From contig NZ_FNKL01000004.1 of assembly GCF_900100115.1 (NCBI RefSeq), positions 310,001 to 374,000 of the forward strand: DNA of 64,000 nt. The letters run 5' to 3'. Shown piece by piece: positions 4,403 through 31,347 of the stretch (position 1 is its first letter; each line of letters starts with the position of its first letter). The notes beneath the pieces were generated by a model. The model had not been told where the DNA came from. It worked only from the letters and a program-made list of their open reading frames with translations, and searched no databases. The position numbers and the translations under genes are program-made. The stretch is from Chryseobacterium soldanellicola (GTDB taxonomy: Bacteria; Bacteroidota; Bacteroidia; Flavobacteriales; Weeksellaceae).

Positions 4403-4981
4403 ATGGAGATTGTCGAAAAAATAACAATGCCGCAAAAAGAGAAGGAAAATATCATCTCACAAACCGTTACAAAGTACGGCGGAAAGCTGATGTCTTACAT
4501 TCGCCCGAAAGTAAAAAATACGGAAGATGCGGAAGATATTCTGCAGGAGGTTTGGTATCAGTTCAGCAGTATTACCAATCTTTCTGAAATTGTGAACGTT
4601 GGCGGCTGGCTGTACAGAGTGACAGCAAATAAAATCACGGACAAATACCGAAAAAAGAAAACTGAAAATCTTGAAGATTTTGTCTACGAAGATGAAGACG
4701 GAAGTTTTTCCATAAAAGACATTCTTTTGCTTGATGAAAGCGCAGGTCCGGAAGTGAAAATGTTTCAGGATGAAATTTGGAAAAAGCTTTTTGAAGCATT
4801 GGATGAATTGCCTGAAAAACAAAGGCTCGTCTATGTAGAAAACGAGCTCAACGACAAAACCCTCCAGGAAATAGCCGATGAGCAGGGCGAAAATATTAAA
4901 ACAATTATCAGTCGGAAAAACTATGCGATAAAGCATTTGAGAAACAGATTGAAAAAATTATACGAAGATTTAAATAGTTAG
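4403..4981 (+). CDS. ECF-like RNA polymerase sigma-70 family factor
   Basis: A 192-residue alternative sigma factor. Region 2 spans residues about 25-95 and contains DAEDILQEVWYQF, the core-binding and -10-recognition helices. Region 4 spans residues about 135-185 (LPEKQRLVYVENELNDKTLQ, then IADEQGENIKTIISRKNYA), a helix-turn-helix for -35 recognition. No region 1 or 3 is present. The ATG at 4403 and an ATG at 4427 are both possible starts. Two small genes follow, the first a membrane protein, which suggests a sigma/membrane-partner unit responding to envelope or surface conditions. Confidence 0.88.
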   Translation: MEIVEKITMPQKEKENIISQTVTKYGGKLMSYIRPKVKNTEDAEDILQEVWYQFSSITNLSEIVNVGGWLYRVTANKITDKYRKKKTENLEDFVYEDEDGSFSIKDILLLDESAGPEVKMFQDEIWKKLFEALDELPEKQRLVYVENELNDKTLQEIADEQGENIKTIISRKNYAIKHLRNRLKKLYEDLNS

Positions 4982-19336: not shown

Positions 19337-19909
19337 TTATTGATGAAGTCTGCTTAAAGTCTCTCTTGTAACTCCCAAGTATGAGGCAATCAAATGTTTA
19401 GGAACTAAATTGTAGAGTTGAGGATACAGCGACAGAAGCTCTTCATACCTGAATTTAGCATCATTATTCATAAAGGAAAGTAGGCGTTTTTGGGCGGCAA
19501 CATAGCCTTTATTCGTTCGCCACCTGAAAAAATGCTCAACTTCATGAATTTCTTTACAGATCGTTTCCCTGTCTTCATTGGAGATTGATAAAATACTCGC
19601 GTTGGTGATGCAGTCGACATTAATGGTTGCCCGGCTTTTGCTGTAAAGCGCGTCAAAATCTGTCACCCACCAGTTGGGCATTGCAAACTGCAGGATAAAC
19701 ATTTTCATGCTGTCATTAAGATAGAAGGCTTTCAGGCAGCCATCCAGAACAAAATATTCATGGTTTACGAAATCACCTTCTGAGATCAGGCTCTGTCCTT
19801 TTTTTAAACTGATCATAGTAAAATGTGAAAAAACATAATCGAACTGCTCTTCGGTAAGAAAAGTAAATTTTGAGATGTGTTCTTTTAATATTTCCTTAGG
19901 ATCAACCAT
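19337..19909 (-). CDS. Crp/Fnr family transcriptional regulator
   Basis: A 190-residue regulator. The N-terminal cyclic-nucleotide-binding-like domain contains LKKGQSLISEGDFVNHEYFV then LDGCLKAF. The C-terminal winged helix ends YLGVTRETLSRLHQ, the recognition helix. It lacks the four Fnr cysteines, so it probably senses a small ligand rather than carrying a 4Fe-4S cluster. It lies upstream of the YceI operon on the same strand. The palindrome at 19273 is a plausible binding site. Confidence 0.88.
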   Translation of the reverse strand: MVDPKEILKEHISKFTFLTEEQFDYVFSHFTMISLKKGQSLISEGDFVNHEYFVLDGCLKAFYLNDSMKMFILQFAMPNWWVTDFDALYSKSRATINVDCITNASILSISNEDRETICKEIHEVEHFFRWRTNKGYVAAQKRLLSFMNNDAKFRYEELLSLYPQLYNLVPKHLIASYLGVTRETLSRLHQ

Positions 19910-19991
19910 AATGGGTAATTAATAGTCAAAATTAAGTCTTTTATTAAAATAATTTTCACATCGGCTTATTTTTTTGTCTGGTGTACTATAT

Positions 19992-20068
19992 GTAGGTTGC
20001 TTCGTACAGTCTATAGTGTTTTATTACAGGATAGTGTATCGGCTTACAGCATAAATCCTATATTTTTG
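19992..20068 (+). promoter_or_regulatory. Tandem-box promoter 1 (drives a short RNA)
   Basis: Box 1 is at 19992-20008 (GTAGGTTGCTTCGTACA) and box 2 at 20013-20028 (ATAGTGTTTTATTACA, one base short). A 32-nt spacer leads to a perfect TATTTTTG box at 20061-20068. The boxes are more degenerate than in other copies, but the 32-nt distance is exact. Transcription runs into a gene-free stretch that ends at the terminator at 20201. Confidence 0.6.
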
Positions 20069-20074
20069 AAACTT

Positions 20075-20229
20075 GGGAACAGTGCAGAAAAAATAATATA
20101 TTATTCATATTTTTCCTCCTTTTATAATGGTTCACCACGTTAGTATTAGTTTTAAATGATGGGAAAGATGGAGGAACATTTTTCATCTTCTGAGTTTTTT
20201 AACCTCCTTTTTATAGGGAGGTTTTTTTA
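20075..20229 (+). ncRNA. Predicted short RNA from tandem-box promoter 1
   Basis: The predicted transcript runs from just after the -7 box to a terminator with stem AACCTCC/GGAGGTT (20201-20207 with 20217-20223) and a T-tract. It contains TTTTTCCTCCTTTTATAATG and, downstream, GGGAAAGATGGAGGAACATT, able to pair as TTCCTCC/GGAGGAA. The only ORF is ten codons (ATG in the loop). The pyrimidine stem, T-rich linker and CCTCC/GGAGG terminator recur in the other transcripts of this regulon. Confidence 0.5.
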
Positions 20230-20261
20230 TTTTTTAAATTAAAATGATATATAATTCATAA

Positions 20262-20296
20262 TTTGTTTCTCTAAGTTAATTTTTTTATTATCTTTG
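20262..20296 (+). promoter_or_regulatory. Promoter of the 67-nt RNA
   Basis: TTTG (20262-20265), 23-bp spacer, then a perfect TATCTTTG -7 box (20289-20296). No tandem boxes are present, so this promoter is probably not controlled like its neighbours. Confidence 0.5.
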
Positions 20297-20297
20297 G

Positions 20298-20364
20298 AAT
20301 GTCTTGAAAAAGACATTTTTTTTCATCATTTGTGTTTTTAGGCTTCCTACGGGAAGCTTTTTTT
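20298..20364 (+). ncRNA. Predicted 67-nt structured small RNA
   Basis: The first hairpin AATGTCTT-GAAA-AAGACATT (20298-20317) is an 8-bp stem closed by a GNRA-type GAAA tetraloop. A linker TTTTTTCATCATTTGTGTTT follows, and a terminator GCTTCC-TACG-GGAAGC (20342-20357) with seven T ends it. No ORF is present. The linker ATCATTTGTGTT is shared with the 3' ends of the transcripts at 21635-21646 and 23925-23936. It has its own promoter. Confidence 0.6.
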
Positions 20365-20393
20365 ATAGGTGTATTCTTGTAAGGTATTCATTT

Positions 20394-20472
20394 GTAGTAC
20401 TTTTAGTACAGCTTTGTAGTGATTTTAGTACAGATTTTATGCTTGAGGAAAGATCATAAACCTGTATTTTTG
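20394..20472 (+). promoter_or_regulatory. Tandem-box promoter 2
   Basis: Two near-perfect boxes, GTAGTACTTTTAGTACA (20394-20410) and GTAGTGATTTTAGTACA (20416-20432), lie exactly 22 bp apart. A 32-nt spacer leads to TATTTTTG (20465-20472). No -33 TTTG is present at the normal place, so an activator is expected. It drives the small ORF at 20486. Confidence 0.75.
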
Positions 20473-20485
20473 GAATACTAAAACC

Positions 20486-20548
20486 ATGATTATGAAAAAA
20501 CAATTAAACCCTTTGATTAGTACAGGACATTCTTGTCCGCTGATTTGA
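20486..20548 (+). CDS. 20-residue peptide ORF behind tandem-box promoter 2
   Basis: The ORF encodes MIMKKQLNPLISTGHSCPLI, or 18 residues from the second Met at 20492. It begins about 14 nt after the -7 box, so its ATG would be the first codon of a short-leader mRNA. It has a basic start, one Cys and a hydrophobic end, and no known family. Downstream (to 20690) a 10-bp pairing ACTTTCCTCC/GGGGGAAAGT encloses a small AATATG/CATATT hairpin. It may be a leader peptide, a secreted signal, or chance. Confidence 0.35.
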   Translation: MIMKKQLNPLISTGHSCPLI

Positions 20549-20693
20549 TTTCTTTTTATTCAATAAAATAATTTTTTAACTGCTATTTTAATAATTGATA
20601 ATACTTTCCTCCTTTTGAATATGTTCCCCGGCATATTTGATTTAGAAAAGATAAATAGGGGGAAAGTTGTTCTGGTCATTTATTTTAATAGGT

Positions 20694-20770
20694 GTAAAGA
20701 TTTTAGTACCGCTTGTAGTACTTTTACTACATATTTTGTAGTAAAAAAAATGCTGAATCAAGTATTTTTG
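20694..20770 (+). promoter_or_regulatory. Tandem-box promoter 3, upstream of the 20788 gene
   Basis: Boxes GTAAAGATTTTAGTACC (20694-20710) and GTAGTACTTTTACTACA (20715-20731) are 21 bp apart. A 31-nt spacer leads to TATTTTTG (20763-20770). Box 2 is a perfect palindrome, GTAGTA-CTTT-TACTAC. The ATG at 20788 is only 17 nt past the -7 box. Confidence 0.75.
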
Positions 20771-20787
20771 ATTTTAAAAAAGATGCT

Positions 20788-21528
20788 ATGAAAAAAAAGA
20801 TTGCCATTTTACTGATTTTAGGACTTGGAGTTATAAAAATAAACGCCCAGATCGGGGTTAATACGTCAAATCCTCAGGCCGCATTTCATGTAGACGGTGC
20901 GAAAGACAACCCTGCTACAGGAGTTCCTACGGCAGCTCAGCAAACCAATGATGTAGCGGTTACACAGCAAGGCAGGGTGGGAATAGGAACGATCGCGCCA
21001 ACAAATAGCCTTGAAGTAGACAGCCGTGTAGCCGGAGCTTCGGGAGTGAAAATGACCCGACTGCCGTCAGCTACCACATTAGCCACCGATGCGAGTGGGA
21101 ATGTGATCTCCGGAAATACCGAAGATGCAGGAGTTTCTGTAACAAAGCTGCGTTTGGCCGTAGCAAGCCCGAGCTTGGTTTTAAATAGCGGATCCGGGGC
21201 TTATTCCTTCAGATATACTTCTACGAATACTGGGGGAACATGGCAGATCAGGATAAATACAGGCGCTACAAGACAGTTTAATATCTGGGATACCGAGTAT
21301 AGCGGACAAAACGGAACCGGAGCATCAGACACCGTATGGCAGCTGAGAACAGTAAAAAACTTAGCACTAAATACATGGACCGCTTTAGATGATAATATTG
21401 CAGGAGGTGCCAATGAATACAATGTTTATCATGTCTATGACCTGAGTACGGGCACAATTTTAAGATTGACCGTTACACTTTCCAGTGTCTCAGGAATCAG
21501 AGAATCAATGATTCTGGAAGAGTTTTAA
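20788..21528 (+). CDS. Secreted tail-fibre-like surface protein (GVNTxxPxxxLDVxG family)
   Basis: A 246-residue protein with a signal peptide (residues 1-20, ending INAQ). The N-terminal surface-family motif IGVNTSNPQAAFHVDGAKD is followed by a second copy-like motif, VGIGTIAPTNSLEVDSRVAG. The C-terminal half (about 115-246) is beta-rich, with the ending IRESMILEEF. This resembles the N-terminal part of tail-fibre-like and collar-like secreted proteins of Flavobacteriales. The function is unknown; a cell-surface or extracellular adhesin role is likely. It is expressed from tandem-box promoter 3 and ends at the terminator at 21648. Confidence 0.75.
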   Translation: MKKKIAILLILGLGVIKINAQIGVNTSNPQAAFHVDGAKDNPATGVPTAAQQTNDVAVTQQGRVGIGTIAPTNSLEVDSRVAGASGVKMTRLPSATTLATDASGNVISGNTEDAGVSVTKLRLAVASPSLVLNSGSGAYSFRYTSTNTGGTWQIRINTGATRQFNIWDTEYSGQNGTGASDTVWQLRTVKNLALNTWTALDDNIAGGANEYNVYHVYDLSTGTILRLTVTLSSVSGIRESMILEEF

Positions 21529-21647
21529 TTTTGATCATACGACCTTATGACATTTCTTTCTCACTTCATATTTTGTTCCCGACATTCATATTTATTTTGC
21601 AAAAATGATGAGAAAAGACGAGAAAGATTTTAATCATTTGTGTTACC

Positions 21648-21709
21648 AGCCTCCCGAAAATGGGAGGCTTTTTTATTAAATGAAAAGACCTCTCAGTACG
21701 GGAGGTCTT
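21648..21709 (+). terminator. Double terminator of the 20788 gene
   Basis: The first hairpin AGCCTCCC/GGGAGGCT (21648-21655 with 21662-21669) is followed by TTTTTT. A second hairpin AAGACCTC/GAGGTCTT (21685-21692 with 21702-21709) follows. The second shares CCTCTCAGT...GGGAGGTCTT with the terminator at 26956. The ATCATTTGTGTT linker is just upstream (21635-21646). Confidence 0.8.
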
Positions 21710-21829
21710 ATTGATCTAAGGGGAATGTTTTCTTTACCATTATTAAAACAGGCTAAACCATTTTTATCCATTGACAATGGGTGTTGATTCTTAAAAATCG
21801 TCTGTCTTAATCGTATTTAAGTTTAAAAG

Positions 21830-22042
21830 AAAGGGGGCTTTGTATTTCTAAAGTCCCCTTTTACCCTTCCATACCCGTCTGCGGGTACTTGTACAAGGGT
21901 TTGGGGATGGTTATATAAGGGTCTGCGGGTATTTATTAAGGGCCTGCATCCCCTTGTTAAAGTGGTTTACCCCCCTTACCCAAGGGGGGTAAACCACTTG
22001 CCCAACCCCCTAAAGGGACTTTGGAAGTGCCCGCGGGCACTT
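21830..22042. other. GC-rich, multi-hairpin intergenic element
   Basis: This unusually GC-rich 213-bp stretch sits between convergent genes. Stems seen: a 12-bp stem at 21830-21841 with 21850-21861; a 6-bp TACCCG/CGGGTA stem at 21872-21887; a 7-bp GGGGATG/CATCCCC stem (21903-21909 with 21947-21953); an 18-bp perfect hairpin at 21960-21977 with 21982-21999 (loop ACCC); and an 18-bp perfect palindrome at 22025-22042. TCTGCGGGTA occurs twice. There is no long ORF and no T-tract. It could be a structured RNA, a palindromic mobile repeat cluster or a mutual transcription block. Confidence 0.6.
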
Positions 22043-22055
22043 GTGCAACAGTCCG

Positions 22056-22547
22056 TTACTCCTTCTTAGAGGCCTCGGCAGGGCTTGCAGAAGTGGGTGC
22101 GCTGCTAAAAAACTGTCTCAGGTCTTCATGGATCACATTGGTTCCCGGAACATTTTCGCCTGCCAGAAATTTTACATTCCTGTAAAAAGTAATTGCGTTG
22201 TGATAGTTGTCATGATCTAATAAAACCTTTGTATCAGCCAGCTGCTCGTTTACAGAGCTCAGCCTTTGCATGCGGCTTTCAATCTGCTGCCTGGCAGAAT
22301 AATCTCTGTCAAATTCTGTTTTATCAATAAAAGAAGGAACATATTGAGGATATTGCTCCATGTAATTTTTAGATTTATCAACGAAGAGCTTATTCTGCTC
22401 GGCTATTCGCCCGTATTGCTGCCTCTGGTCGGGCGTAAGGTTGATGGTTTTTCCCGAAAGCACATTTTCTATACTGCTTAAAGCCTGATCCAATATGGAA
22501 AGATCGCTTTCTGAAAATGTAAGGCTGATTAAATTGTCTAATGCCAT
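22056..22547 (-). CDS. Hypothetical cytoplasmic helical protein
   Basis: A 163-residue protein without a signal peptide, predicted mostly helical. Residues about 10-130 are rich in Gln, Glu and Lys with heptad-like spacing (coiled coil), and the C-terminus is Ala/Ser/Pro-rich (SSAPTSASPAEASKKE). No family is recognised. It is the only minus-strand gene within the tandem-box region and converges on the 20788 gene across the GC-rich element. I see no tandem boxes at its own start. Confidence 0.65.
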   Translation of the reverse strand: MALDNLISLTFSESDLSILDQALSSIENVLSGKTINLTPDQRQQYGRIAEQNKLFVDKSKNYMEQYPQYVPSFIDKTEFDRDYSARQQIESRMQRLSSVNEQLADTKVLLDHDNYHNAITFYRNVKFLAGENVPGTNVIHEDLRQFFSSAPTSASPAEASKKE

Positions 22548-22929
22548 TGTTGTATTTTTTTGTTGATTATTCTCTCAAATATATGTAATACAGCAGGTCA
22601 AAATACGCAGGACCTTCAATTTTTTAAGGGTCATTCATCACTTTGATAAAGCCGGCTAAATTTATTTTATTAAACTTTATTTATTGTGAGTATTTTTCTT
22701 ATTCTCTTTAGTTTTTATTAATATTTAATTGTCACTTTCTTAGCATGCGGTGTAGTAGTATTGGTACAAAGGTGTAGTATTCTTAGTACAGGGATTTTTA
22801 TGATGTCATTATTAATAAAGATATATTTGACCTGTTTTTCTGAACAAATTTTTCTATGCTTAAATGCATTACCCGCTACGAAAAATTATTGATAATTAAT
22901 CTTTACTCATCATTCAAAATAATAAAAAC
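22548..22929. other. Divergent intergenic region holding tandem-box promoter 4
   Basis: 380 bp between the minus-strand helical protein and the plus-strand 22930 gene. It holds the tandem-box promoter at 22752-22829; the remainder is AT-rich with no other feature I can support. Confidence 0.5.
22752..22829 (+). promoter_or_regulatory. Tandem-box promoter 4, upstream of the 22930 gene
   Basis: Boxes GTAGTAGTATTGGTACA (22752-22768) and GTAGTATTCTTAGTACA (22774-22790) are 22 bp apart. A 31-nt spacer leads to TATATTTG (22822-22829). The leader to the ATG at 22930 is about 95 nt. Confidence 0.72.
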
Positions 22930-23841
22930 ATGAAAAAAATTATTACAAGCTTATTCTTTCTGGCAGCAGGCTCATCTGCTTTTGCTCAAGTAGGTGTAAA
23001 TACACCCACTCCACAAGGCTCACTGGACGTGGCGTATGTGCCCACGAAACCCACCTCGCCACAGGGCGTATTATTTCCCAGGCTTACAGGTGATGAGGTA
23101 CAGGCGATGACTGTGGGAGCAGGCCAAAACGGAATGTTTGTGTTTGCTACTTCGCGTCCTACGAATTCTATAGCCCGAACGAGCTTAATTACAGAATCCG
23201 GGCTGTATTATTATTTTTCAGCTGATGATAAATGGCGAAATGTAAATCAGATCATAAATCCCAGCTCACTGTTTTCTACAAGCTACCAAAATACAGATAT
23301 GCTGATTGCGCAATACACAGGCGGGGCAGGAGCTGCTGATTACAATTCAGGTCAGATGTCACATATATTTTTTGTAAACGGTACTGAAACACCATTCAAC
23401 AGCTCACCATTTGTAGCAGTGAGAACTGCTGATAACAATCGTGGGATAGATTTCCTGAAATCCGGCATCTACAGTGTCACCATTCAGTTTACTTTTGTTT
23501 ATCAGAGGGATGTTGCGGGTGATGGAGCAAGCAGCCCAACCCTCCCGGACAGGCTGGGAAGCCAGGTTACTTATCAGCTGGTTCCCAATTTTATAAATTC
23601 TCCTGCTTCCGCATATGTCAGCAATATTACGCATAATACAGATTATATGACGATCAGGCAGGGCTCAGGCCTTTTCAGGATTAGTGGTATCGCGGTAGGA
23701 AATATTATTGTAAAACAGGATAATGTGGTTAAATTTATCCCTGAAATCAGAACAAGCGGCTATTGGCTTTCCTCAGAAGAATTAATGCCGACCGGCGGCT
23801 TAAGTATGCATATTACAAGGGTTTCTGATTATACGCCATAA
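22930..23841 (+). CDS. Secreted surface protein (GVNTxxPxxxLDV family), 303 aa
   Basis: A signal peptide (residues 1-20, GSSAFAQ) precedes VGVNTPTPQGSLDVAYV, the family's N-terminal signature. It continues with LFPRLTGDEVQAMTVGAGQN followed by GMFVFA, as in tail-fibre-like secreted proteins. Residues about 110-300 look like a beta-sandwich or jelly-roll (TNF-like shape: ...SGIYSVTIQFTFVYQ... LMPTGGLSMHITRVSDYTP). It could be an adhesin or receptor-like surface protein. It has its own tandem-box promoter and ends at the terminator at 23939. Confidence 0.72.
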   Translation: MKKIITSLFFLAAGSSAFAQVGVNTPTPQGSLDVAYVPTKPTSPQGVLFPRLTGDEVQAMTVGAGQNGMFVFATSRPTNSIARTSLITESGLYYYFSADDKWRNVNQIINPSSLFSTSYQNTDMLIAQYTGGAGAADYNSGQMSHIFFVNGTETPFNSSPFVAVRTADNNRGIDFLKSGIYSVTIQFTFVYQRDVAGDGASSPTLPDRLGSQVTYQLVPNFINSPASAYVSNITHNTDYMTIRQGSGLFRISGIAVGNIIVKQDNVVKFIPEIRTSGYWLSSEELMPTGGLSMHITRVSDYTP

Positions 23842-23938
23842 TAGATCAACGATTAAAATACGCTTTTAAAAACAGAACTACTTTTCCCTCCTTTAATGAG
23901 AAAAGAGGAGGTGAATTTTTTTTTATCATTTGTGTTTG

Positions 23939-23967
23939 TACCTCCCATATCGGGAGGTATGTTTTTA
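23939..23967 (+). terminator. Terminator of the 22930 gene with conserved linker upstream
   Basis: The stem TACCTCCC/GGGAGGTA (23939-23946 with 23952-23959) with a 5-nt loop is followed by TGTTTTT. Upstream are a CCTCC/GGAGG pairing (about 23887-23911) and the linker ATCATTTGTGTT (23925-23936), the same order as in the other regulon transcripts. Confidence 0.75.
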
Positions 23968-23994
23968 TTTAAAGATCTTACCGGTTTTCCCGGT

Positions 23995-24073
23995 GTGGAT
24001 ATCTTAGTACATTTTTGTAGTATTTTTAGTACAAATGTAATTCTTAAGAGACGCCATAAATCCTATAATTTTG
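23995..24073 (+). promoter_or_regulatory. Tandem-box promoter 5, upstream of the 24299-26828 genes
   Basis: Boxes GTGGATATCTTAGTACA (23995-24011) and GTAGTATTTTTAGTACA (24017-24033) are exactly 22 bp apart. A 32-nt spacer leads to TAATTTTG (24066-24073). The leader is long, about 220 nt to the ATG at 24299, and carries no clear ORF. Confidence 0.75.
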
Positions 24074-24298
24074 ACGGTGAAATGTGAGCGTATAAAATGT
24101 GATATTGAGAATTATCAATCTATTACACTTATTCAGAAAGCTACTTTCCATTTAATCTTTTAATAAGTAGGAATATATACAAAGCAAAAAAAATCAGCCG
24201 TAATGATAGTAATTCTTTAATAACGGTAGTAGCTATTGGCATTTTAATCCTTGAAAACATCAATTATTCTAACAACATTCTTTTATAATAACTTGAAA

Positions 24299-25348
24299 AT
24301 GAAAAAAAACAATCTCTATGTAGCTGCCCTCGTTTTGGGATGCTTTACAGCCAATGCACAGGGCGTGGGAATCGGAACCCCTTCACCAGTTGCTTCCGCA
24401 ATGTTAGAAGTGAATTCTACCAGCAAAGGATTTTTGATGCCACGTATGACAACATCAGAAAGAGTAGCTGTTACCTCTCCAGCAAAAGGGCTTCAGGTAT
24501 TTGATACAACAACGAATACACTTTGGTATTTCAACGGAACGATCTGGGTAAACGCCGGAGCGGCAGTGGCTGATAACCTGGGAAACCATTCTGCAACACA
24601 GGATTTATTATTAAACAGCAATGCCTTACAATTAGAAGGAGCGGGTGGTGTAAATAAAATTGTATACAATACTACAGTGGATGGTCCTGTAATTACAGGT
24701 AACGCAGGCGGCTCTTTAGGAACGGCAAGCGGCGGTAACGCAACTGCTTTAACATGGTTGGCCAACGGTGCAGTAGGTGTCGGAACCACCACTCCGTTTG
24801 CTACAGCAAAGTTTCAGGCAGCACAGGATAAAACAGCATATGGAGAGTTTGGACAGCTAATGGCAACCGGTCTTACTGATCCCAATCAAAAACTGGTTTT
24901 AGGCTATAATACAACAACCGATAAAGGCTTTATACAGTCCGTACACAGCGGTACAGCATGGACAAATCTTTCTCTGCAACCCAACAACGGCAACGTAACC
25001 GTTGGAGCTTTCACCGATAATGCAACCAGTAAGCTGGAAGTAAACGGCGCTTCTACCAATTATGTCGCTTACAATGCCGGTGCGGGAAGAACGATCAACT
25101 ACCTGCTGAGTAACCTTGCTTATACTACAGCCAATGCTGCAGGTACCTTTACATTAACAGGCGTAAAAGACGGCGGAACTTACAGCCTTGCCGTAAGAGG
25201 AACGGTAAGCGGTACCGCACTTTTCGCCGCATCCGGATTTACCGTAAAATATGCCAATAACCGTCCCACTACAGCAGGCACGGAAACAGTATATACTCTG
25301 GTCGTAATGGGAAGCACCATTTATGTGTATATGTCTGCAGGATTTTAA
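24299..25348 (+). CDS. Secreted tail-fibre-like surface protein, 349 aa
   Basis: A signal peptide (MKKNNLYVAALVLGCFTANA) leads to QGVGIGTPSPVASAMLEVNS then TSKGFLMPRMTTSERVA, the signature shared by tail-fibre-like secreted proteins. The middle contains more VGTTTPFATAKFQ-type units, and the C-terminus (about 255-349) is a beta-rich domain ending STIYVYMSAGF. The start at 24299 is preferred to the TTG at 24251 because it begins directly at the signal peptide. The next gene begins 31 nt after the stop, so the two form an operon under tandem-box promoter 5. Confidence 0.75.
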   Translation: MKKNNLYVAALVLGCFTANAQGVGIGTPSPVASAMLEVNSTSKGFLMPRMTTSERVAVTSPAKGLQVFDTTTNTLWYFNGTIWVNAGAAVADNLGNHSATQDLLLNSNALQLEGAGGVNKIVYNTTVDGPVITGNAGGSLGTASGGNATALTWLANGAVGVGTTTPFATAKFQAAQDKTAYGEFGQLMATGLTDPNQKLVLGYNTTTDKGFIQSVHSGTAWTNLSLQPNNGNVTVGAFTDNATSKLEVNGASTNYVAYNAGAGRTINYLLSNLAYTTANAAGTFTLTGVKDGGTYSLAVRGTVSGTALFAASGFTVKYANNRPTTAGTETVYTLVVMGSTIYVYMSAGF

Positions 25349-25379
25349 TTTTTAAAACCCTTTATAATTAATTAAGATT

Positions 25380-26828
25380 ATGATAAAAATAAAAAAAGGG
25401 CTTACAACCTTTCTCTGCTGTATAGTACTGCTTGGAGCGATACAGTTCGGGGCTGCACAGGCGGTAGGTACTCCTTATATAACACCCACACAGGACATTC
25501 CTTTCAGCTTTCTTGCGGGGGGTAGTGCGGCAGAATCTCCTGCTCTGGTAGAGCAAACTGCTGACAGTGGCTATATTACCATTAGTGGCTCGAGTTCATC
25601 AGCAACAGGAAATATAACAGGAGCCAGCCATGGAAATGTAGATATTTGGGTCACAAAATATGATCAATATGGCAAAATAGAATGGCAACGTCTGTATGGC
25701 GGAGCAGGTTTTGAATATGGTTATTCTATTAAACAAACTTCCGAAGGTGGATATATTTTTGTAGGAACAACTACTTCCTCAGGAACAGGAGATGTAATGA
25801 CTGCTCCGGCAGATCACGAGGGTAATGGAGATATCTGGGTGGTAAAATTAACTGCTGCCGGTGCCATTACATGGCAAAAAATACTGGGAGGTAATGCCAC
25901 GGATTATGGTAATGTTATTCACCAGACTGCTGATGGTGGATATATTGTTGGAGGTCGTACCCGGTCATCGGCGAGTGGCGAGGTTACAAGCACCAGACCT
26001 ATTAATGCCTTTGATTTCTGGGTGATAAAGCTTACTTCTACGGGTGCAGTTACCTGGCAACAGGCATATGGAAACCCAACAGGTGGTTCAGGAGAAGATT
26101 ATTTATATGGTTTGGATCCTACTAGCGATGGTACCGGGTATATATTGGGTGGTTATGGCCTGGATGTAAATAACGGTAACTTTTTTGCAGTGAAAATAAA
26201 TCTGACCGGAGCAGTAGTATGGACAAGAACTTATGGCAGCTCAGGTACTGATACTTGTTTTTCTTCCTTTGCAACTTCTGATGGAGGTGCTATACTGGCT
26301 GGCTATTCAACGGGTTCAGCTAATGGTGATGTTACGGCAACCAATCATGGTGGTGATGATATGTGGGTAGTCAAGTTAAACTCGGCGGGTAACATACAAT
26401 GGCAGCGTCTTCTTGGTGGTACAGGTAATGAACGGGCTACTTCAGTCATACAAACAGCAGACGGCAATTTTGTAGTGGCAGGGTATTCTACTTCTTCTGC
26501 CAATGGAGATGTTACGGCAACCAGTCACGGAGCTGCTGATGTTTGTGTATTTAAATTAAGCTCAACAGGCACCACACTATGGCATCGCCTGTTTGGAGGA
26601 ACGCTTAATGATGGTGCCGTAAATACAACGACTATAAATCCTGCACCTGTTCATATATATCAGACGACGGACGGAGACTATGTGATCACAAGTACTTCCA
26701 TTTCAACAAATACAGGAGACGTTACCGATACCAACAACGGAACCGGTAATACTAATCCTGATCAGTGGTTGTTTAAGTTTAATGAAACCGGCGATATTGT
26801 CTGGGTTCCGGATCTCGGACAAAAATAA
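25380..26828 (+). CDS. Secreted repeat protein, probable beta-propeller
   Basis: A 482-residue protein with a signal peptide (residues about 1-26, GAAQA). About six to seven repeats of 60-65 residues follow. Each has QTxDGGYIxxGxSxSxxxGD, then an HGxxDxWVVKLxxxG segment, then xxWQRLxGG, for example GGDDMWVVKLNSAGNIQWQR. One repeat probably forms one propeller blade. There is no C-terminal type IX sorting domain, so it is likely periplasmic or released. It probably works with the preceding surface protein. The terminator is at 26956. Confidence 0.75.
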   Translation: MIKIKKGLTTFLCCIVLLGAIQFGAAQAVGTPYITPTQDIPFSFLAGGSAAESPALVEQTADSGYITISGSSSSATGNITGASHGNVDIWVTKYDQYGKIEWQRLYGGAGFEYGYSIKQTSEGGYIFVGTTTSSGTGDVMTAPADHEGNGDIWVVKLTAAGAITWQKILGGNATDYGNVIHQTADGGYIVGGRTRSSASGEVTSTRPINAFDFWVIKLTSTGAVTWQQAYGNPTGGSGEDYLYGLDPTSDGTGYILGGYGLDVNNGNFFAVKINLTGAVVWTRTYGSSGTDTCFSSFATSDGGAILAGYSTGSANGDVTATNHGGDDMWVVKLNSAGNIQWQRLLGGTGNERATSVIQTADGNFVVAGYSTSSANGDVTATSHGAADVCVFKLSSTGTTLWHRLFGGTLNDGAVNTTTINPAPVHIYQTTDGDYVITSTSISTNTGDVTDTNNGTGNTNPDQWLFKFNETGDIVWVPDLGQK

Positions 26829-26955
26829 TAACTGCATTTCCAGATATTTTAAATCTTTATTAATTCAATTTAACGTAGAGTTTATTACTATTTCCCTTAA
26901 ATATTTGATATAGGGAAAACAAACTCAAACAGCGATTCTGAAAACACATTATAAA

Positions 26956-26984
26956 AAGGCCTCTCAGTTTGGGAGGTCTTTTGC
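26956..26984 (+). terminator. Terminator of the 24299-25380 operon
   Basis: The stem AGGCCTCTC/GGGAGGTCT (26957-26965 with 26971-26979, two wobble pairs) has the loop AGTTT and then TTTT. It is nearly identical to the second hairpin at 21685-21709. Confidence 0.75.
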
Positions 26985-27272
26985 TTCTGTAAATAATTTA
27001 CTATTATTTTTAATTTAATGAATATATTTTATCGACAAAAATCTATTTCAACGGTTTTTTTGTTTTTATATCTTTGATATGTTTTTATTAGTAACAATAA
27101 TTAAATTATTAATTATGATGAATTTATTTTATTATAATGTAAATTATGAAGAATATTTTTCTTTTATGCTTTCGCCTTATTTATTAAATAAATATTTCTG
27201 TAAATTAAAAAAATCTGAATTTATTTAATATTAAATTTTTGGCTAAAATTTGTAATAAAAATTTGACACTTT

Positions 27273-27317
27273 GTAGAATTTTTTCTACAAAAATGTAATT
27301 ATTGTATATTATATTTG
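27273..27317 (+). promoter_or_regulatory. Palindrome and -7 box of the kinase/regulator operon
   Basis: The perfect palindrome GTAGAA-TTTT-TTCTAC (27273-27288) resembles box 2 of tandem-box promoter 3 (GTAGTA-CTTT-TACTAC). A perfect TATATTTG -7 box follows at 27310-27317. Counted the same way, the distance is 20 nt instead of 31-32, about one helical turn less. Autoregulation is a reasonable inference. Confidence 0.5.
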
Positions 27318-27349
27318 CACATCCAACTAAAACCTAACACAAGTTATTG

Positions 27350-30340
27350 ATGAAGTTTTATCCGTTTGTTTTTTTATTTTTTTCACTATTTTTCCATAGC
27401 CAGCGTTACACTTCACAGTGGTATGGTATGGATGAGGGCCTGCCCCAGAATAGTATAAAAGATATCATAAAAGATCAGTATGGTTTCATCTGGCTGTCAA
27501 CCGACGGCGGTATCGTAAGGTATGATGGTAAAAGTTTTTTATTGCATAATGAATTTAAAATCAGTAGTTTAAGTTTTAAAGATTTTCTCAGAGATAAAAA
27601 CGGAGGAATCACTTGCTTTAATAATGGCGAAAAAGACTGTGTCCTGATTTCAAACCGGACAGCGACGATTTTACCTCAGGAAAAAATTGAACGGACTTAC
27701 GCTTTAACAAAGGAAGCTCAATATAAAAGGTTTTATAAAAACAGTCTTATTGACCGGTTTTATCCGGAAGTTAATTATTATTATATAAAAACAGATGCCG
27801 GCATTTACTATTTTGATAATCATACCATTGAATATAAACCAAACAAAGGATTATCAAAAATTATAAAGAAAAATTTTCTTCATACAGATCTTAAAGGTGC
27901 CTTTGAGCATGATAATGTTGTCTATATTGCTGATCCTAATAACAGAACGACAATGATTCTCAAAAACGGAAATGTGTCCTACGATAATCAGCCATCTTTA
28001 TACAACGATCCCGAAACAAGAATTTACTGGCACCAAGGCACAAAACAGGTTTTTCTGATCAAAAACGGTGATATTTACATCAGTAAAATAGTAAATAACA
28101 AACCCAGGCTTACATTCTTGATGGGCTATAAAAATATTGAAAAGAATTTTATTTACTGCATGTATTTTGATGAAGAGGCCAATAAATTATATTTCGGAAA
28201 TGTAGTAAAAGGACTTAATATTGTTAATCTTTCTAATTTTTATGTTTCGCAGAAAAATATTCCCTTTTTGGGAGAATTTGTCTATGAAGCATTGCCTTTC
28301 AGCCCCAATTCAGTGATTACAAAACAGGGGATAGAATACTATAAAGACCGGATAAATAAAATATACAATACAGTTGTAAAGTATGATAAACGCTATCTTC
28401 TGTATGATAATTCCCAAAATCTTCTTTATTTAGAATATAATAAGATCCAAAGAAGACTTAAGTCCTCAAATTATCAGAAAAAAGACTCTGTAAAGCTTGG
28501 GAAATCAGTTGAAGGACTGTTCAAAATAGGTACAAATTACATGGTAAATGTAGCGGATTACAAATTTAATTATTATCTGAAAGTATTTCCCGATGATAAG
28601 TTTAAAAAGCCAAGCAATATTTTTAAATTTAAAAAAGATATAAATTTCGTTACGCCTTACAATAATGATCTTTTTTATGTCGGGACAAGCAACGGAATTT
28701 ACCTTTTATCACTTTTAAAAAACAAAATTGTCAAATATCTGGCGAAAGATTTACCGATTAAGGAAATCCAGCGTACAAAAGACGGAAACTTCTGGTTTAC
28801 AACGCATAATAAAGGATTTTATCTGATTAAAAACAATGAAGTGATCAAAATGCCGGACGACAAAAACGGATATATTGCCAATGCACACCATATTCTGGAA
28901 GACACGCAAGGCATGTTTTGGATATCTTCAAATAACGGTTTGTTTAAAATTCCTGAAAAAATTCTTCTGAATTATGCGCAGAATAGAAATTCCAAGGTCA
29001 CGTATTACCGGTATACCAAAGAAAACGGTTTTGTGAATAATGAATTTAACGGCAGCGCCAACCCAAGCGGAAATATACTTCAAAACGGAGAATTTGTCTT
29101 TCCGTCAATGGAAGGTTTTGTATTTTTTAAGCCCCATGAAATTAAAAGCCATTATCCCAAAAGCGACCAGCTTTATATTGAAAGAGCCAAAATCGGAAAT
29201 AATATGATCAGTTTTAAAGATACAATCCGTTTAAAAAGTGACTATAAAAATGTTGATATTTTCCTTGATCTTCCTTATTATTATGACATCGAAAATGTTT
29301 ATCTTGAAGCTAAGCTCGAAAATGGAAAAAACAGTAAATGGGAAGAGATAAAAAATGATAAAAAATTTACATTAAATCCCGTAAATCCGGGAAATTATAC
29401 TCTTTTAGTACGATTCTTAATTGCTGAGGACGGAAAATTTGCCTACAAAAAGATCTTTTTGGAGATAAAACCGTTTTTTTATCAGACAATGTTGTTTAAG
29501 ATATTCATTATGTTGTTGATTTTAACAGTCATTTTGATGATTATTCAGATGCGGACCAATTTTCTCAGAATTAAAAATAAAAAATTAAAAAATAACCTCT
29601 ACAGCAAAGATCAGGAGCTGAAAGAAACCAGTAACACGCTGGAAATCACAAAGAATAAGCTTAAAAATGAAGCTGAATATCAGCAAAAAATAATGGAAAG
29701 CATCAGCCATGATATTACGACTCCCGTAAGATTCATTGCTTTACTTTCACAAAAGCTCAGCACCGCGGAAGATGCTCAGATTCAGAAAAAATATTTCGAT
29801 GGAATTTATAAAACTTCTGAGCAGCTCTTCAAATTTACATTAGGCTTAAAAGAATATACCGAGCTTTACAAAGAAGAGAATATTTTAGAAAGCGAAGAGT
29901 ATGCTTTGTATGATCTCGTGGAAGATAAAAAGTTGCTTTTTGAAGAAATGGCGATGGATAATAATACGACAATAGCTAATCTTTGTGATCCGGATTTACG
30001 ACTGAAAACCAATCGGAATATTTTTTCGGCAATGCTTCATAATCTGATTGATAATGCGGTGAAAAATACAACAGACGGAAAAATAACCATAACAGCTGCC
30101 GTAAAAGATGCTCAGGTGGAAATAGGAATTTCCGATACCGGAAAGGGAATGTCACAAAGCCAGATAGAATATTATTCTCATGTTTTTGAAAGCATGGAAA
30201 CGGAAAATTTTGTTTTTAAAAATTATGGTTTAGGACTACACATGGTTATTCAGCTGAGTAAAAAAATAAATGCAAAAATAAGTTTTCATGAAAATGTACC
30301 GAAAGGAACCGTGGTAAAAATTTTTCTTAAAATTGACTGA
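27350..30340 (+). CDS. Reg_prop/Y_Y_Y sensor histidine kinase
   Basis: A 996-residue hybrid-type sensor without its own receiver. A signal peptide (1-18) is followed by a large periplasmic Reg_prop propeller (about 20-560; QYGFIWLSTDGGIVRYDGKS, GNFWFTTHNKGFYLI, GMFWISSNNGLFKIP). Next come a Y_Y_Y-like domain (about 630-700) and one membrane helix (about 714-737). The HisKA phospho-acceptor is His787 in ESISHDITTPVRF. The HATPase has its N box at LIDNAVKN and G boxes at DTGKGMS and GLGLH. The family commonly senses extracellular glycans. The start is the ATG at 27350, not the TTG before it. It lies 2 nt from the response regulator. Confidence 0.92.
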   Translation: MKFYPFVFLFFSLFFHSQRYTSQWYGMDEGLPQNSIKDIIKDQYGFIWLSTDGGIVRYDGKSFLLHNEFKISSLSFKDFLRDKNGGITCFNNGEKDCVLISNRTATILPQEKIERTYALTKEAQYKRFYKNSLIDRFYPEVNYYYIKTDAGIYYFDNHTIEYKPNKGLSKIIKKNFLHTDLKGAFEHDNVVYIADPNNRTTMILKNGNVSYDNQPSLYNDPETRIYWHQGTKQVFLIKNGDIYISKIVNNKPRLTFLMGYKNIEKNFIYCMYFDEEANKLYFGNVVKGLNIVNLSNFYVSQKNIPFLGEFVYEALPFSPNSVITKQGIEYYKDRINKIYNTVVKYDKRYLLYDNSQNLLYLEYNKIQRRLKSSNYQKKDSVKLGKSVEGLFKIGTNYMVNVADYKFNYYLKVFPDDKFKKPSNIFKFKKDINFVTPYNNDLFYVGTSNGIYLLSLLKNKIVKYLAKDLPIKEIQRTKDGNFWFTTHNKGFYLIKNNEVIKMPDDKNGYIANAHHILEDTQGMFWISSNNGLFKIPEKILLNYAQNRNSKVTYYRYTKENGFVNNEFNGSANPSGNILQNGEFVFPSMEGFVFFKPHEIKSHYPKSDQLYIERAKIGNNMISFKDTIRLKSDYKNVDIFLDLPYYYDIENVYLEAKLENGKNSKWEEIKNDKKFTLNPVNPGNYTLLVRFLIAEDGKFAYKKIFLEIKPFFYQTMLFKIFIMLLILTVILMIIQMRTNFLRIKNKKLKNNLYSKDQELKETSNTLEITKNKLKNEAEYQQKIMESISHDITTPVRFIALLSQKLSTAEDAQIQKKYFDGIYKTSEQLFKFTLGLKEYTELYKEENILESEEYALYDLVEDKKLLFEEMAMDNNTTIANLCDPDLRLKTNRNIFSAMLHNLIDNAVKNTTDGKITITAAVKDAQVEIGISDTGKGMSQSQIEYYSHVFESMETENFVFKNYGLGLHMVIQLSKKINAKISFHENVPKGTVVKIFLKID

Positions 30341-30342
30341 TT

Positions 30343-30963
30343 ATGAATAAAAAAATACTAATTGCAGATGATCATTATGTAGTGAGACTTGGGACCGCCT
30401 TGGTTTTGGAAAATCAATTTTCCAAGATTTCAATCGATTACGCAGAAAATTATGATGAGGTTAAAATGAAGCTGAAGGCCGAAAAGTTTGATCTTATTAT
30501 TCTTGATATCGAAATGCCGGGAAGTACTTTTAAGAATATGATTAAAGAGCTGAAAATGATTCAGGAAGATCTGATGATCATGATTTTTTCCTCCTACAAA
30601 GAAAGTGTTGCTATAGAATATATTCAGGAAGGTGCAGAAGGATATTTAAATAAATTAAGCAGTGAAAAGACTTTGATTAAAGCGATGCAGTCAATTTTCG
30701 AAGACGGTTATTATTATCCTCTTAAATTAGTAAAACAGTTATCAAGCCGTCCGGAGAAAAAAGAAGTCGAGCGTATTTTATCGGAAAGAGAGCTGCAGGT
30801 TTTCAAGCTTTTAGCAGAAGGAAACGGAAATCTTGAAATCGCGAATATCCTGCAAATCCAGATGACTACCGCAAGCACCTATAAAAGACGGATTTATGCT
30901 AAATTGGGCGTCAATAATCTGATTGATCTTCTCAAAGTGTATAATAATCAAATCGGAGAGTAA
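30343..30963 (+). CDS. LuxR/NarL-type response regulator
   Basis: A 206-residue two-domain regulator. In the receiver domain (residues 1-120), the acidic pair is DDH and the phospho-acceptor is Asp55 in LIILDIEMPG; SS and K follow at the usual places (IFSSYKES, GYLNKLSS). The C-terminal LuxR helix-turn-helix (about 142-203) is LSERELQVFKLLAEGNGNLE then IANILQIQMTTASTYKRRIY. NarL-type dimers bind short inverted repeats ending in TAC/GTA, which fits the GTACT-N3-AGTAC boxes nearby. It is translated with the kinase gene. Confidence 0.92.
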   Translation: MNKKILIADDHYVVRLGTALVLENQFSKISIDYAENYDEVKMKLKAEKFDLIILDIEMPGSTFKNMIKELKMIQEDLMIMIFSSYKESVAIEYIQEGAEGYLNKLSSEKTLIKAMQSIFEDGYYYPLKLVKQLSSRPEKKEVERILSERELQVFKLLAEGNGNLEIANILQIQMTTASTYKRRIYAKLGVNNLIDLLKVYNNQIGE

Positions 30964-31013
30964 GTTTAGTTATCTCTAAAAATAATTTTCGCATTAAATT
31001 AAAAAATAGAGAA

Positions 31014-31043
31014 TAAAAAAACACCAGACCTCCAGATCTGATG
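31014..31043 (-). terminator. Second minus-strand terminator, tail-to-tail with the response regulator
   Basis: The 9-bp stem CACCAGACC/GATCTGATG (two wobbles, loop TCCA) is followed on the minus strand by a run of T (the A-run 31014-31021). Confidence 0.6.
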
Positions 31044-31146
31044 CGATGATGGGTTTTTAGAGGAACAAACCATCAATTAGAAAGCGCTATTAAATATATT
31101 TTAAAACAGTAAAATGATCTACCGGATAACTCCGGCAGACCGGATG

Positions 31147-31262
31147 AAAAAAAAGCAACAATTACTGTTGATAATTGCTTACTGTGTCCCTTATTATAAG
31201 CTTTTTGATCATTTAATATATGCTGTTGAATTGAATTCGCTGTTTTGATTTCTACTTATATA
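31147..31262 (-). ncRNA. Predicted short minus-strand RNA from tandem-box promoter 6
   Basis: The predicted transcript begins just after the -7 box and runs to a hairpin (AAGC and AATTA paired with TAATT and GCTT, 31153-31180) followed by eight T on the minus strand. It contains a 16-codon ORF (31162-31212, MIKKLIIRDTVSNYQQ) whose last codons lie in the terminator stem. Read-through would extend it to the terminator at 31014. It may act as an RNA or encode a small peptide. Confidence 0.45.
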
Positions 31263-31268
31263 CTTGTG

Positions 31269-31347
31269 CAAAAATATGATCGTAAGTTTGAATTTTAAGT
31301 ATAAAAGGTGTACTAAGAACACTACGGTATTGTACTAAAAGTACTAC
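31269..31347 (-). promoter_or_regulatory. Tandem-box promoter 6 (minus strand)
   Basis: Read on the minus strand: GTAGTACTTTTAGTACA (31331-31347) and GTAGTGTTCTTAGTACA (31309-31325) are exactly 22 bp apart. A 32-nt spacer leads to TATTTTTG (31269-31276). The geometry is identical to promoters 2 and 5, but it points toward the 3' end of the kinase/regulator operon and has no protein gene of normal length downstream. Confidence 0.75.

Follow-up and report, generated by a model that had tools for sequence, protein, structure and literature searches.

In a 64,000-nucleotide stretch of the Chryseobacterium soldanellicola genome (contig NZ_FNKL01000004.1, positions 310,001 to 374,000; the window), six promoters, here P1 to P6, carry palindromic boxes in tandem (one pair being degenerate) at a near-constant distance from a TANNTTTG -7 box. 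In all likelihood, the cognate factor of these boxes is the response regulator of LuxR/NarL type encoded at 30343, paired with the propeller-bearing sensor kinase encoded at 27350. Specifically, we give a probability of about 0.85 to the sequence-based reading that the boxes are operator pairs through which this regulator activates exported-looking proteins and candidate small RNAs. Moreover, relatives appear to keep the spacing, while the letters of the boxes change together with the DNA-reading helix of the regulator. An earlier inspection of the window (the original prediction) had already proposed that a linked LuxR-type regulator runs such a regulon, which is now favored by the co-occurrence of box and helix, by rewired orthologous targets, and by a box pair at the kinase promoter. 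The elements concerned are listed below, with the strand in brackets.

P1 (+): degenerate pair, box 1 at 19991-20008 and weak box 2 at about 20011-20030; -7 box TATTTTTG at 20061-20068; predicted start at about 20073
P2 (+): boxes at 20393-20410 and 20415-20432; -7 box TATTTTTG at 20465-20472
P3 (+): boxes at 20693-20710 and 20714-20731; -7 box TATTTTTG at 20763-20770
P4 (+): boxes at 22751-22768 and 22773-22790; -7 box TATATTTG at 22822-22829
P5 (+): boxes at 23994-24011 and 24016-24033; -7 box TAATTTTG at 24066-24073
P6 (-): boxes at 31348-31331 and 31326-31309; -7 box TATTTTTG at 31276-31269
Kinase promoter (+): boxes at 27251-27268 (TGTAATAAAAATTTGACA) and 27272-27289 (TGTAGAATTTTTTCTACA); -7 box TATATTTG at 27310-27317
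27350..30340 (+): sensor histidine kinase with Reg_prop, HATPase_c, and a sub-threshold HisKA
30343..30963 (+): LuxR/NarL-type response regulator with Response_reg and GerE, recognition helix MTTASTYKRR; proposed activator

Tandem boxes at the window promoters

As derived from 20 boxes, each site is an 18-mer, TGTAGT-N6-AGTACA, and the 17-mer GTAGTnnTTTTAGTACA, with up to two mismatches allowed, has eight matches in the 64-kb window against 0.13 expected. Counted from the start of box 1, the TANNTTTG lies at +69, +71, +69, +70, +71, and +71 in the promoters at 19992, 20394, 20694, 22752, 23995, and 31347 (minus strand), and the period of the two boxes is 22, 21, 22, 22, and 22 in P2 to P6. The near-constant spacing originally described therefore stands, with the -7 box 69-71 bp past the box-1 start at all six sites and a period of 21-22 in P2 to P6, where it is fixed while the DNA between and around the boxes varies. 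Calling the six architectures identical fits P2 to P6 but is overstated for P1, whose box 1 has four mismatches and whose box 2 (TATAGTGTTTTATTACA) sits 1-2 bp off register; P1 was missed by both tandem scans. Its equivalent by order in the nearest relative (locus L066, position 4471) has two good boxes and heads a series, continued at 4806 and 5101, upstream of the same 246-aa gene. An inner palindrome, GTACT-N3-AGTAC, had also been proposed for the boxes, and here the prediction fails: it occurs in only two of the ten P2 to P6 boxes, the outer TGTAST-N6-ASTACA being found in six.

The TANNTTTG -7 box, a trait of Bacteroidetes sigma-A promoters, is present in all ten promoters listed for the genome. 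A TTG at a gap of 17-23 nt from it, as a possible -33 element, occurs at one of the six window promoters, at three of the ten genome promoters, and at 10 of 101 among all TANNTTTG in the window. Hence, the claim that none of the six has a -33 element agrees with P1, P4, P5, and P6, but goes too far for P2 (TTG, 19-nt gap) and P3 (TTG, 24-nt gap). In a study on flavobacterial sigma-A promoters (PMC9723704), the same TAnnTTTG box is placed at -12 to -5 in Flavobacterium psychrophilum, and we estimated transcription starts from this position. On that basis, the box centers of P2 to P6 would fall at about -52.5 and -74. Compared with the promoters in that study (PMC9723704), the regulator box pair here appears to replace the -33 part; the term LuxR has no occurrence in its main text.

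Further promoters in the genome and a box pair at the kinase gene

Elsewhere in the source genome (G000; 4.14 Mb in nine contigs), four unlinked promoters share this geometry, these being C9:986525 (-), C9:643316 (+), C6:87372 (-), and C4:400285 (+), each with the -7 box at 69-70. All four are upstream of exported-looking proteins, three of which have a VG(I/L)(N/Y)(T/S) start. In fact, seven of the ten promoters came from tandem scans blind to the -7 box, yet the TANNTTTG is found at 69-71. Single boxes with 0-1 mismatch number 17 genome-wide, 13 of them in tandem promoters and the other four at C4:463151 and in three near-identical repeats near contig ends. At three mismatches, however, there are 210 single boxes against 608 for the reversed pattern, which makes this control unhelpful, and since such boxes are rarer than the reversed pattern, the case rests on low-mismatch boxes and the tandem layout. 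The genome-wide motif scan that the original prediction had proposed is thus favorable for the tandems, with their set -7 distance and four extra promoters, but not for single three-mismatch boxes.

The three repeats just mentioned (L012 297-313, L014 132-148, and L015 1501-1517, at the ends of C5 and C8 contigs) each carry a palindrome, TGTAGTTATTTTACTACA, 60 bp upstream of TAGATTTG. The repeat has a single box, its geometry differing from that of the tandem promoters, and the L012 copy is upstream of a 181-aa protein with a signal-like start.

A pair also stands at the kinase promoter, closer to the -7 box than the P2 to P6 pairs by about one turn of the helix, with centers at about -41.5 and -62.5, and therefore autoregulation of the kinase-regulator operon is suggested. 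A pair at 58-59 directly upstream of the kinase is found in the window, L066, and L077-L081 (7 of 41 loci), and in weaker form in L083. Here, the sign of regulation has to be weighed, as the same regulator might use the same boxes to repress, or to repress or activate depending on its phosphorylation. This would suit the kinase promoters of L068 and L071, where a box starts 26 bp before the -7 box and binding could hinder polymerase, but P2 to P6, with boxes well upstream (about -52.5 and -74) and no fixed -33 element, have the layout of activated promoters. We therefore consider repression unlikely and favor activation by the regulator.

The kinase and regulator

The regulator matches PF00072 (E 5.8e-18) and PF00196 (E 2e-15), both above gathering thresholds, and the kinase matches HATPase_c (E 1.9e-15), with HisKA under the cut-off. 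Residues D9, D10, D55, and K104 of the regulator are invariant in 22 aligned sequences, as is H788 of the kinase in 17. The regulator start codon lies 2 bp past the kinase stop, an adjacency from which the two are presumed to be a cognate pair. Among named NarL-family regulators (FimZ, NarL, UhpA, CsgD, and others), the best 25 of 79 NCBIfam matches are all under the curated cut-off, as illustrated by FimZ (94 bits against a cut-off of 271).

Of the 173 genus genomes, 100 have a kinase relative (E<=1e-150), as do 65 of the 246 family genomes, the latter in 3 of 33 genera. As the source genome itself encodes three or more such kinases, another of its paralogous regulators (e.g. that at C5:685343) might be the true binder. 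The C5 paralogue, however, has the helix ESTVGTYKRR and its own kinase has other boxes (TGTAAATTTTTTTCCACA/TGTAGAATTATTTCTACA); moreover, tandem TGTAGT-type boxes (A boxes) are confined to genomes with an MTTAS regulator, those with only ESTVG regulators being without them. A paralogous binder thus seems very improbable beside the regulator at 30343.

Geometry in related loci

The loci examined comprise 40 kinase loci and 78 named loci, the latter taken as the best 80 of at least 589 stretches matched with a kinase alignment, where the kinase sequence alone gave no relative. The two sets overlap in genomes, so their counts are not independent. The scan mask fixes only the TGTA and TACA of each box, the period, and the -7 distance, and the counts keep matches inside open reading frames (ORFs) of more than 110 aa and include palindromic pairs on both strands. 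At threshold 13, the window and 20 loci gave 32 matches; shifting the -7 distance left 0-4, and shifting the period 0-5. Over 41 loci there were 39 matches, against 0, 0, 0, 1, and 0 in first-order shuffles, and the pattern thereby withstands the comparison with shuffled DNA that had been proposed as a check. In the 78 named loci, 50 matches compare with 0-2 at eight of nine -7 shifts and 0-4 at ten period shifts; the 18 matches at the remaining shift, -12, probably represent the kinase-promoter class, judging from the 41-locus list. At threshold 14 over the 41 loci, the -7 distance is 70/71 in 26 matches and 58/59 in six, with six singles elsewhere, and the period is 21-22 in 28 of 32 matches. 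For 11 of the 78 named loci there is no regulator within the distance filter, and two loci gave an empty helix string. Outside the source genome, G195 has five unlinked sites, all with the -7 box at 69-70 and all upstream of surface-type proteins.

Covariation of recognition helix and box

Tandem A boxes occur in 4 of 173 genus genomes (G000, G195, G024, and G079), the same four being recovered with 4- and 3-nt linkers, and a tandem B box (TGTCTT, same geometry) occurs in another 4 of 173 (G004, G027, G161, and G013), all with the helix AGT[MV]; all reversed-pattern controls gave 0. Helices were read for all 27 regulators at E<=1e-74, of which five are MTTAS and four AGT, a fifth AGT row (G019) coming from another listing. 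All four A-box genomes fall within the five with MTTASTYKRR (Fisher 1.4e-7, with kinship ignored). Put in terms of loci, MTTASTYKRR regulators (G000, G195, G127, G024 C17, and G079) adjoin TGTAGT...AGTACA boxes, AGT[MV] regulators (G004, G161, G027, G013, and G019) adjoin TGTCTT-type boxes, and, at most of the loci read, TGTAAATATTTATCCACA/TGTGAA...CTACA accompanies ESTVG regulators. The receiver of G004 shows 74% identity with the G000 receiver and 60% with the G013 receiver, yet it is with G013 that G004 has helix start and box in common. In other genera, under relaxed settings, the helix PGTV goes with TGTCT boxes at 70-71 in L242 (its 9,053-base contig being that of L204) and in L243.

This distribution bears on the Crp/Fnr-like regulator encoded at 19337-19909, beside P1, as the protein that binds the boxes. 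CRP-family proteins do bind palindromes of similar length, and in G000 as well as in G195 the gene diverges from the first promoter (L066 3822-4391, 90.5% identical). However, 135 of the 173 genus genomes have Crp-like homologs (E<=1e-40), as against four with tandem A boxes; G127 has none, the best match in box-bearing G024 is 42%, and among the 40 kinase loci a close copy is found only in L066, three others having 22-30% matches. Because the distributions of gene and boxes disagree in this way, the Crp-like neighbor was rejected, and we leave it only the slightest chance.

The targets themselves are rewired. Orthologs of the 246-aa protein behind P3 are 87% identical in G195 (L066) and 76% in G004 (L070), and the same geometry holds boxes of type A in G000 and G195 and of type B in G004 and G161. 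Here, a promoter cassette spread among the surface genes by duplication or recombination, and kept by descent without a regulator, has to be considered, since these genes have common N-terminal modules with dissimilar C-termini, leaders of different genes share sequence, and the L067 leader contains a truncated surface gene. On this account, though, one would not look for a spacing that is fixed while the surrounding DNA differs, for orthologous genes holding differing boxes that each match the resident regulator, or for a kinase promoter pair at another fixed distance. The rewiring of orthologous targets in particular makes a passive cassette very unlikely, and we retain the regulator at 30343 as the agent.

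Several observations weigh against this reading. At the promoter level, a TTG at a gap of 17-23 nt is found upstream of three of the ten promoters, the G024 site C17:97624 is without a -7 box at the due position, and in G079 the site L125 is followed by no ORF of at least 90 aa within the locus. At threshold 13, many loci of more distant paralogs have no pair, and a clear kinase-type pair is absent from 34 of 41 loci. As to covariation, the boxes of G127 (helix MTTAS) are mixed (TGTAGT, TGTCAT, and AGTCGT) and escape the strict A scan, the B scan does not recover G019 (helix AGTV), and the fit in other genera is mixed, with L205 (PGTV), L240, and L241 lacking such boxes. Furthermore, the receiver tree is poorly resolved, and because a weakly supported fork (84/84) mixes five AGT rows with two MTTAS rows, helix and box may have come down together by common descent.

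Putative target proteins and candidate short RNAs

The genes and candidate RNAs placed behind these promoters, and the loci of a further candidate RNA at a paralogous kinase, are as follows.

20788..21528 (+): 246-aa protein downstream of P3, probably secreted and surface-located
22930..23841 (+): 303-aa protein downstream of P4, probably secreted and surface-located
24299..25348 (+): 349-aa protein downstream of P5 and its leader of some 220 nt, probably secreted and surface-located
25380..26828 (+): SBBP-like beta-propeller protein, 482 aa (NF047494, E 3e-16, under the curated cut-off)
20073..20235 (+): putative short RNA of about 150 nt started at P1, with a terminator-like stem at 20201-20223
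31116..31264 (-): putative small RNA of about 150 nt started at P6, reaching a terminator-like stem at 31141-31116; second stem at 31044-31021
Upstream of the kinase in L142-L146, L148, L150, L151, L153, L155, L157, L159, L190, and L192: candidate divergent RNA loci of the ESTVG paralog

P3, P4, and P5 precede proteins of the MKK...AQ type, starts on which the secreted call is based, with a VG(V/I)(N/G)T motif; the 482-aa propeller gene begins 31 nt past the end of the 24299 gene and possibly forms an operon with it. These three were described originally as secreted and tail-fiber-like, and while the first part is in keeping with their MKK...AQ starts, support for the likeness is thin. Of four proteins compared with PHROG, the 246-aa protein matches a tail fiber family (PHROG 18345) at E 4.6e-4 over 33 residues, the 349-aa protein matches a virion structural family (E 7.4e-6, 50 residues), and the 303-aa protein has no match. 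Neither Pfam nor NCBIfam gave a match for the three P3 to P5 proteins. The 246-aa model (mean predicted local distance difference test score, pLDDT, 61.5) has no PDB fold match at E<=0.001, and the 303-aa model (pLDDT 34.6) was left unused.

P1, P2, and P6 have no ORF of at least 70 aa of their own, and no ATG ORF longer than 56 aa in the 420 nt read, though P2 could read through into the P3 gene. Short peptides after P2 and other promoters were considered as signals; their sequences differ between promoters, and this, together with the truncated surface-protein start in the L067 leader, makes them look like remnants rather than a peptide family. That start (AQVGINTYTPNATLDVV), at L067 8361-8522 behind a tandem promoter, runs for 53 codons and then meets a stop, which points to gene turnover behind retained promoters. 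Separately, group-B leaders resemble one another across different surface genes (mean column identity 80%; L072 13915-14070 and 15525-15680, L070 13860-14010, L073 13733-13885), as if copied between genes.

P1, P6, and the ESTVG-type divergent promoter may yield RNAs of about 100-150 nt. In the 14 named ESTVG loci listed, a pair lies between the kinase and a divergent promoter, followed by a putative RNA, about 110 nt long, that finishes with a terminator stem; TGTTCCC is present in 10 of the 14, and the 5' part of the consensus is mostly unpaired. Leaders and 3' regions close to window genes contain TGTTCCC as well. Counterparts of the P6 RNA beside a regulator or kinase are found in L066, L067, L068, and L069, with a weak mean column identity of 47%. 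The stretch has 17 terminator-like stems against 7.7 in shuffles. Between 19000 and 33000, an Rfam search at E<=1 returned only two mir-299 matches, far under the gathering score, on an intergenic GC-rich inverted repeat (21959-22002). A repeated element, TTTTYATCATTTGTGTT, is present at 20320-20347, 21628-21655, and 23920-23947, each followed by a terminator hairpin, with a degenerate copy at 20180; two of the copies are downstream of surface genes.

Proposed circuit and relation to known systems

In the circuit we propose, a signal would reach the propeller of the kinase, which would then phosphorylate the regulator. Two regulator dimers would bind the two 18-bp sites, two helical turns apart on the same DNA face, and from there activate by recruiting RNA polymerase-sigma A to promoters with a -7 box and without a fixed -33 element. 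The regulator would also act on its own operon through the pair at about -41.5 and -62.5, and its targets would be exported-looking proteins with a common N-terminal module and varied C-termini, along with the candidate small RNAs.

The proposed regulon is new, its parts being of a known kind, namely a NarL/FixJ two-component system; searches of the open literature, which omits most subscription papers, turned up no description of it. NarL/FixJ regulators (LuxR-type GerE) have the same receiver and GerE domains and the same operon with a histidine kinase, and they generally use palindromic sites upstream of the promoter, several per promoter. The present case differs in its TGTAGT-N6-AGTACA site, in the rigid 21-22-bp tandem set at two discrete distances from a Bacteroidetes TANNTTTG, and in a paralog set whose boxes change with the helix. 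Both this rigid two-distance promoter grammar and the series of helix-box pairs are unusual. Hybrid two-component systems of Bacteroidetes likewise have a Reg_prop propeller as the sensor part, as in this kinase, whereas here the kinase and the regulator have a gene each, and the latter is of the GerE rather than the AraC type.

More tentatively, and at somewhat short of even odds, we extend the proposal to a whole family, formed by the paralogous kinase-regulator pairs of Chryseobacterium and its close relatives. These would share one rigid grammar (about 70 bp at targets and about 58 bp at the kinase), with the helix and box positions 4-6 changing jointly (MTT with TGTAG, AGT or PGT with TGTCT, and EST with TGTAAA or TGTGAA), and each pair would drive modular surface proteins of its own and, in many cases, a small RNA with an unpaired UGUUCCC segment.

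Gene regulation in Flavobacteriia is thinly mapped, and the layout described here means that a LuxR-type activator pair may substitute for the -33 element. The regulator-box pairs form a natural series from which a GerE-type recognition code could be read, and the system as proposed connects a sensor with a shuffled repertoire of surface proteins. If the wider family holds true, it would amount to a natural code for the specificity of LuxR-type regulators, together with a surface-display circuit that includes its own RNA arm.

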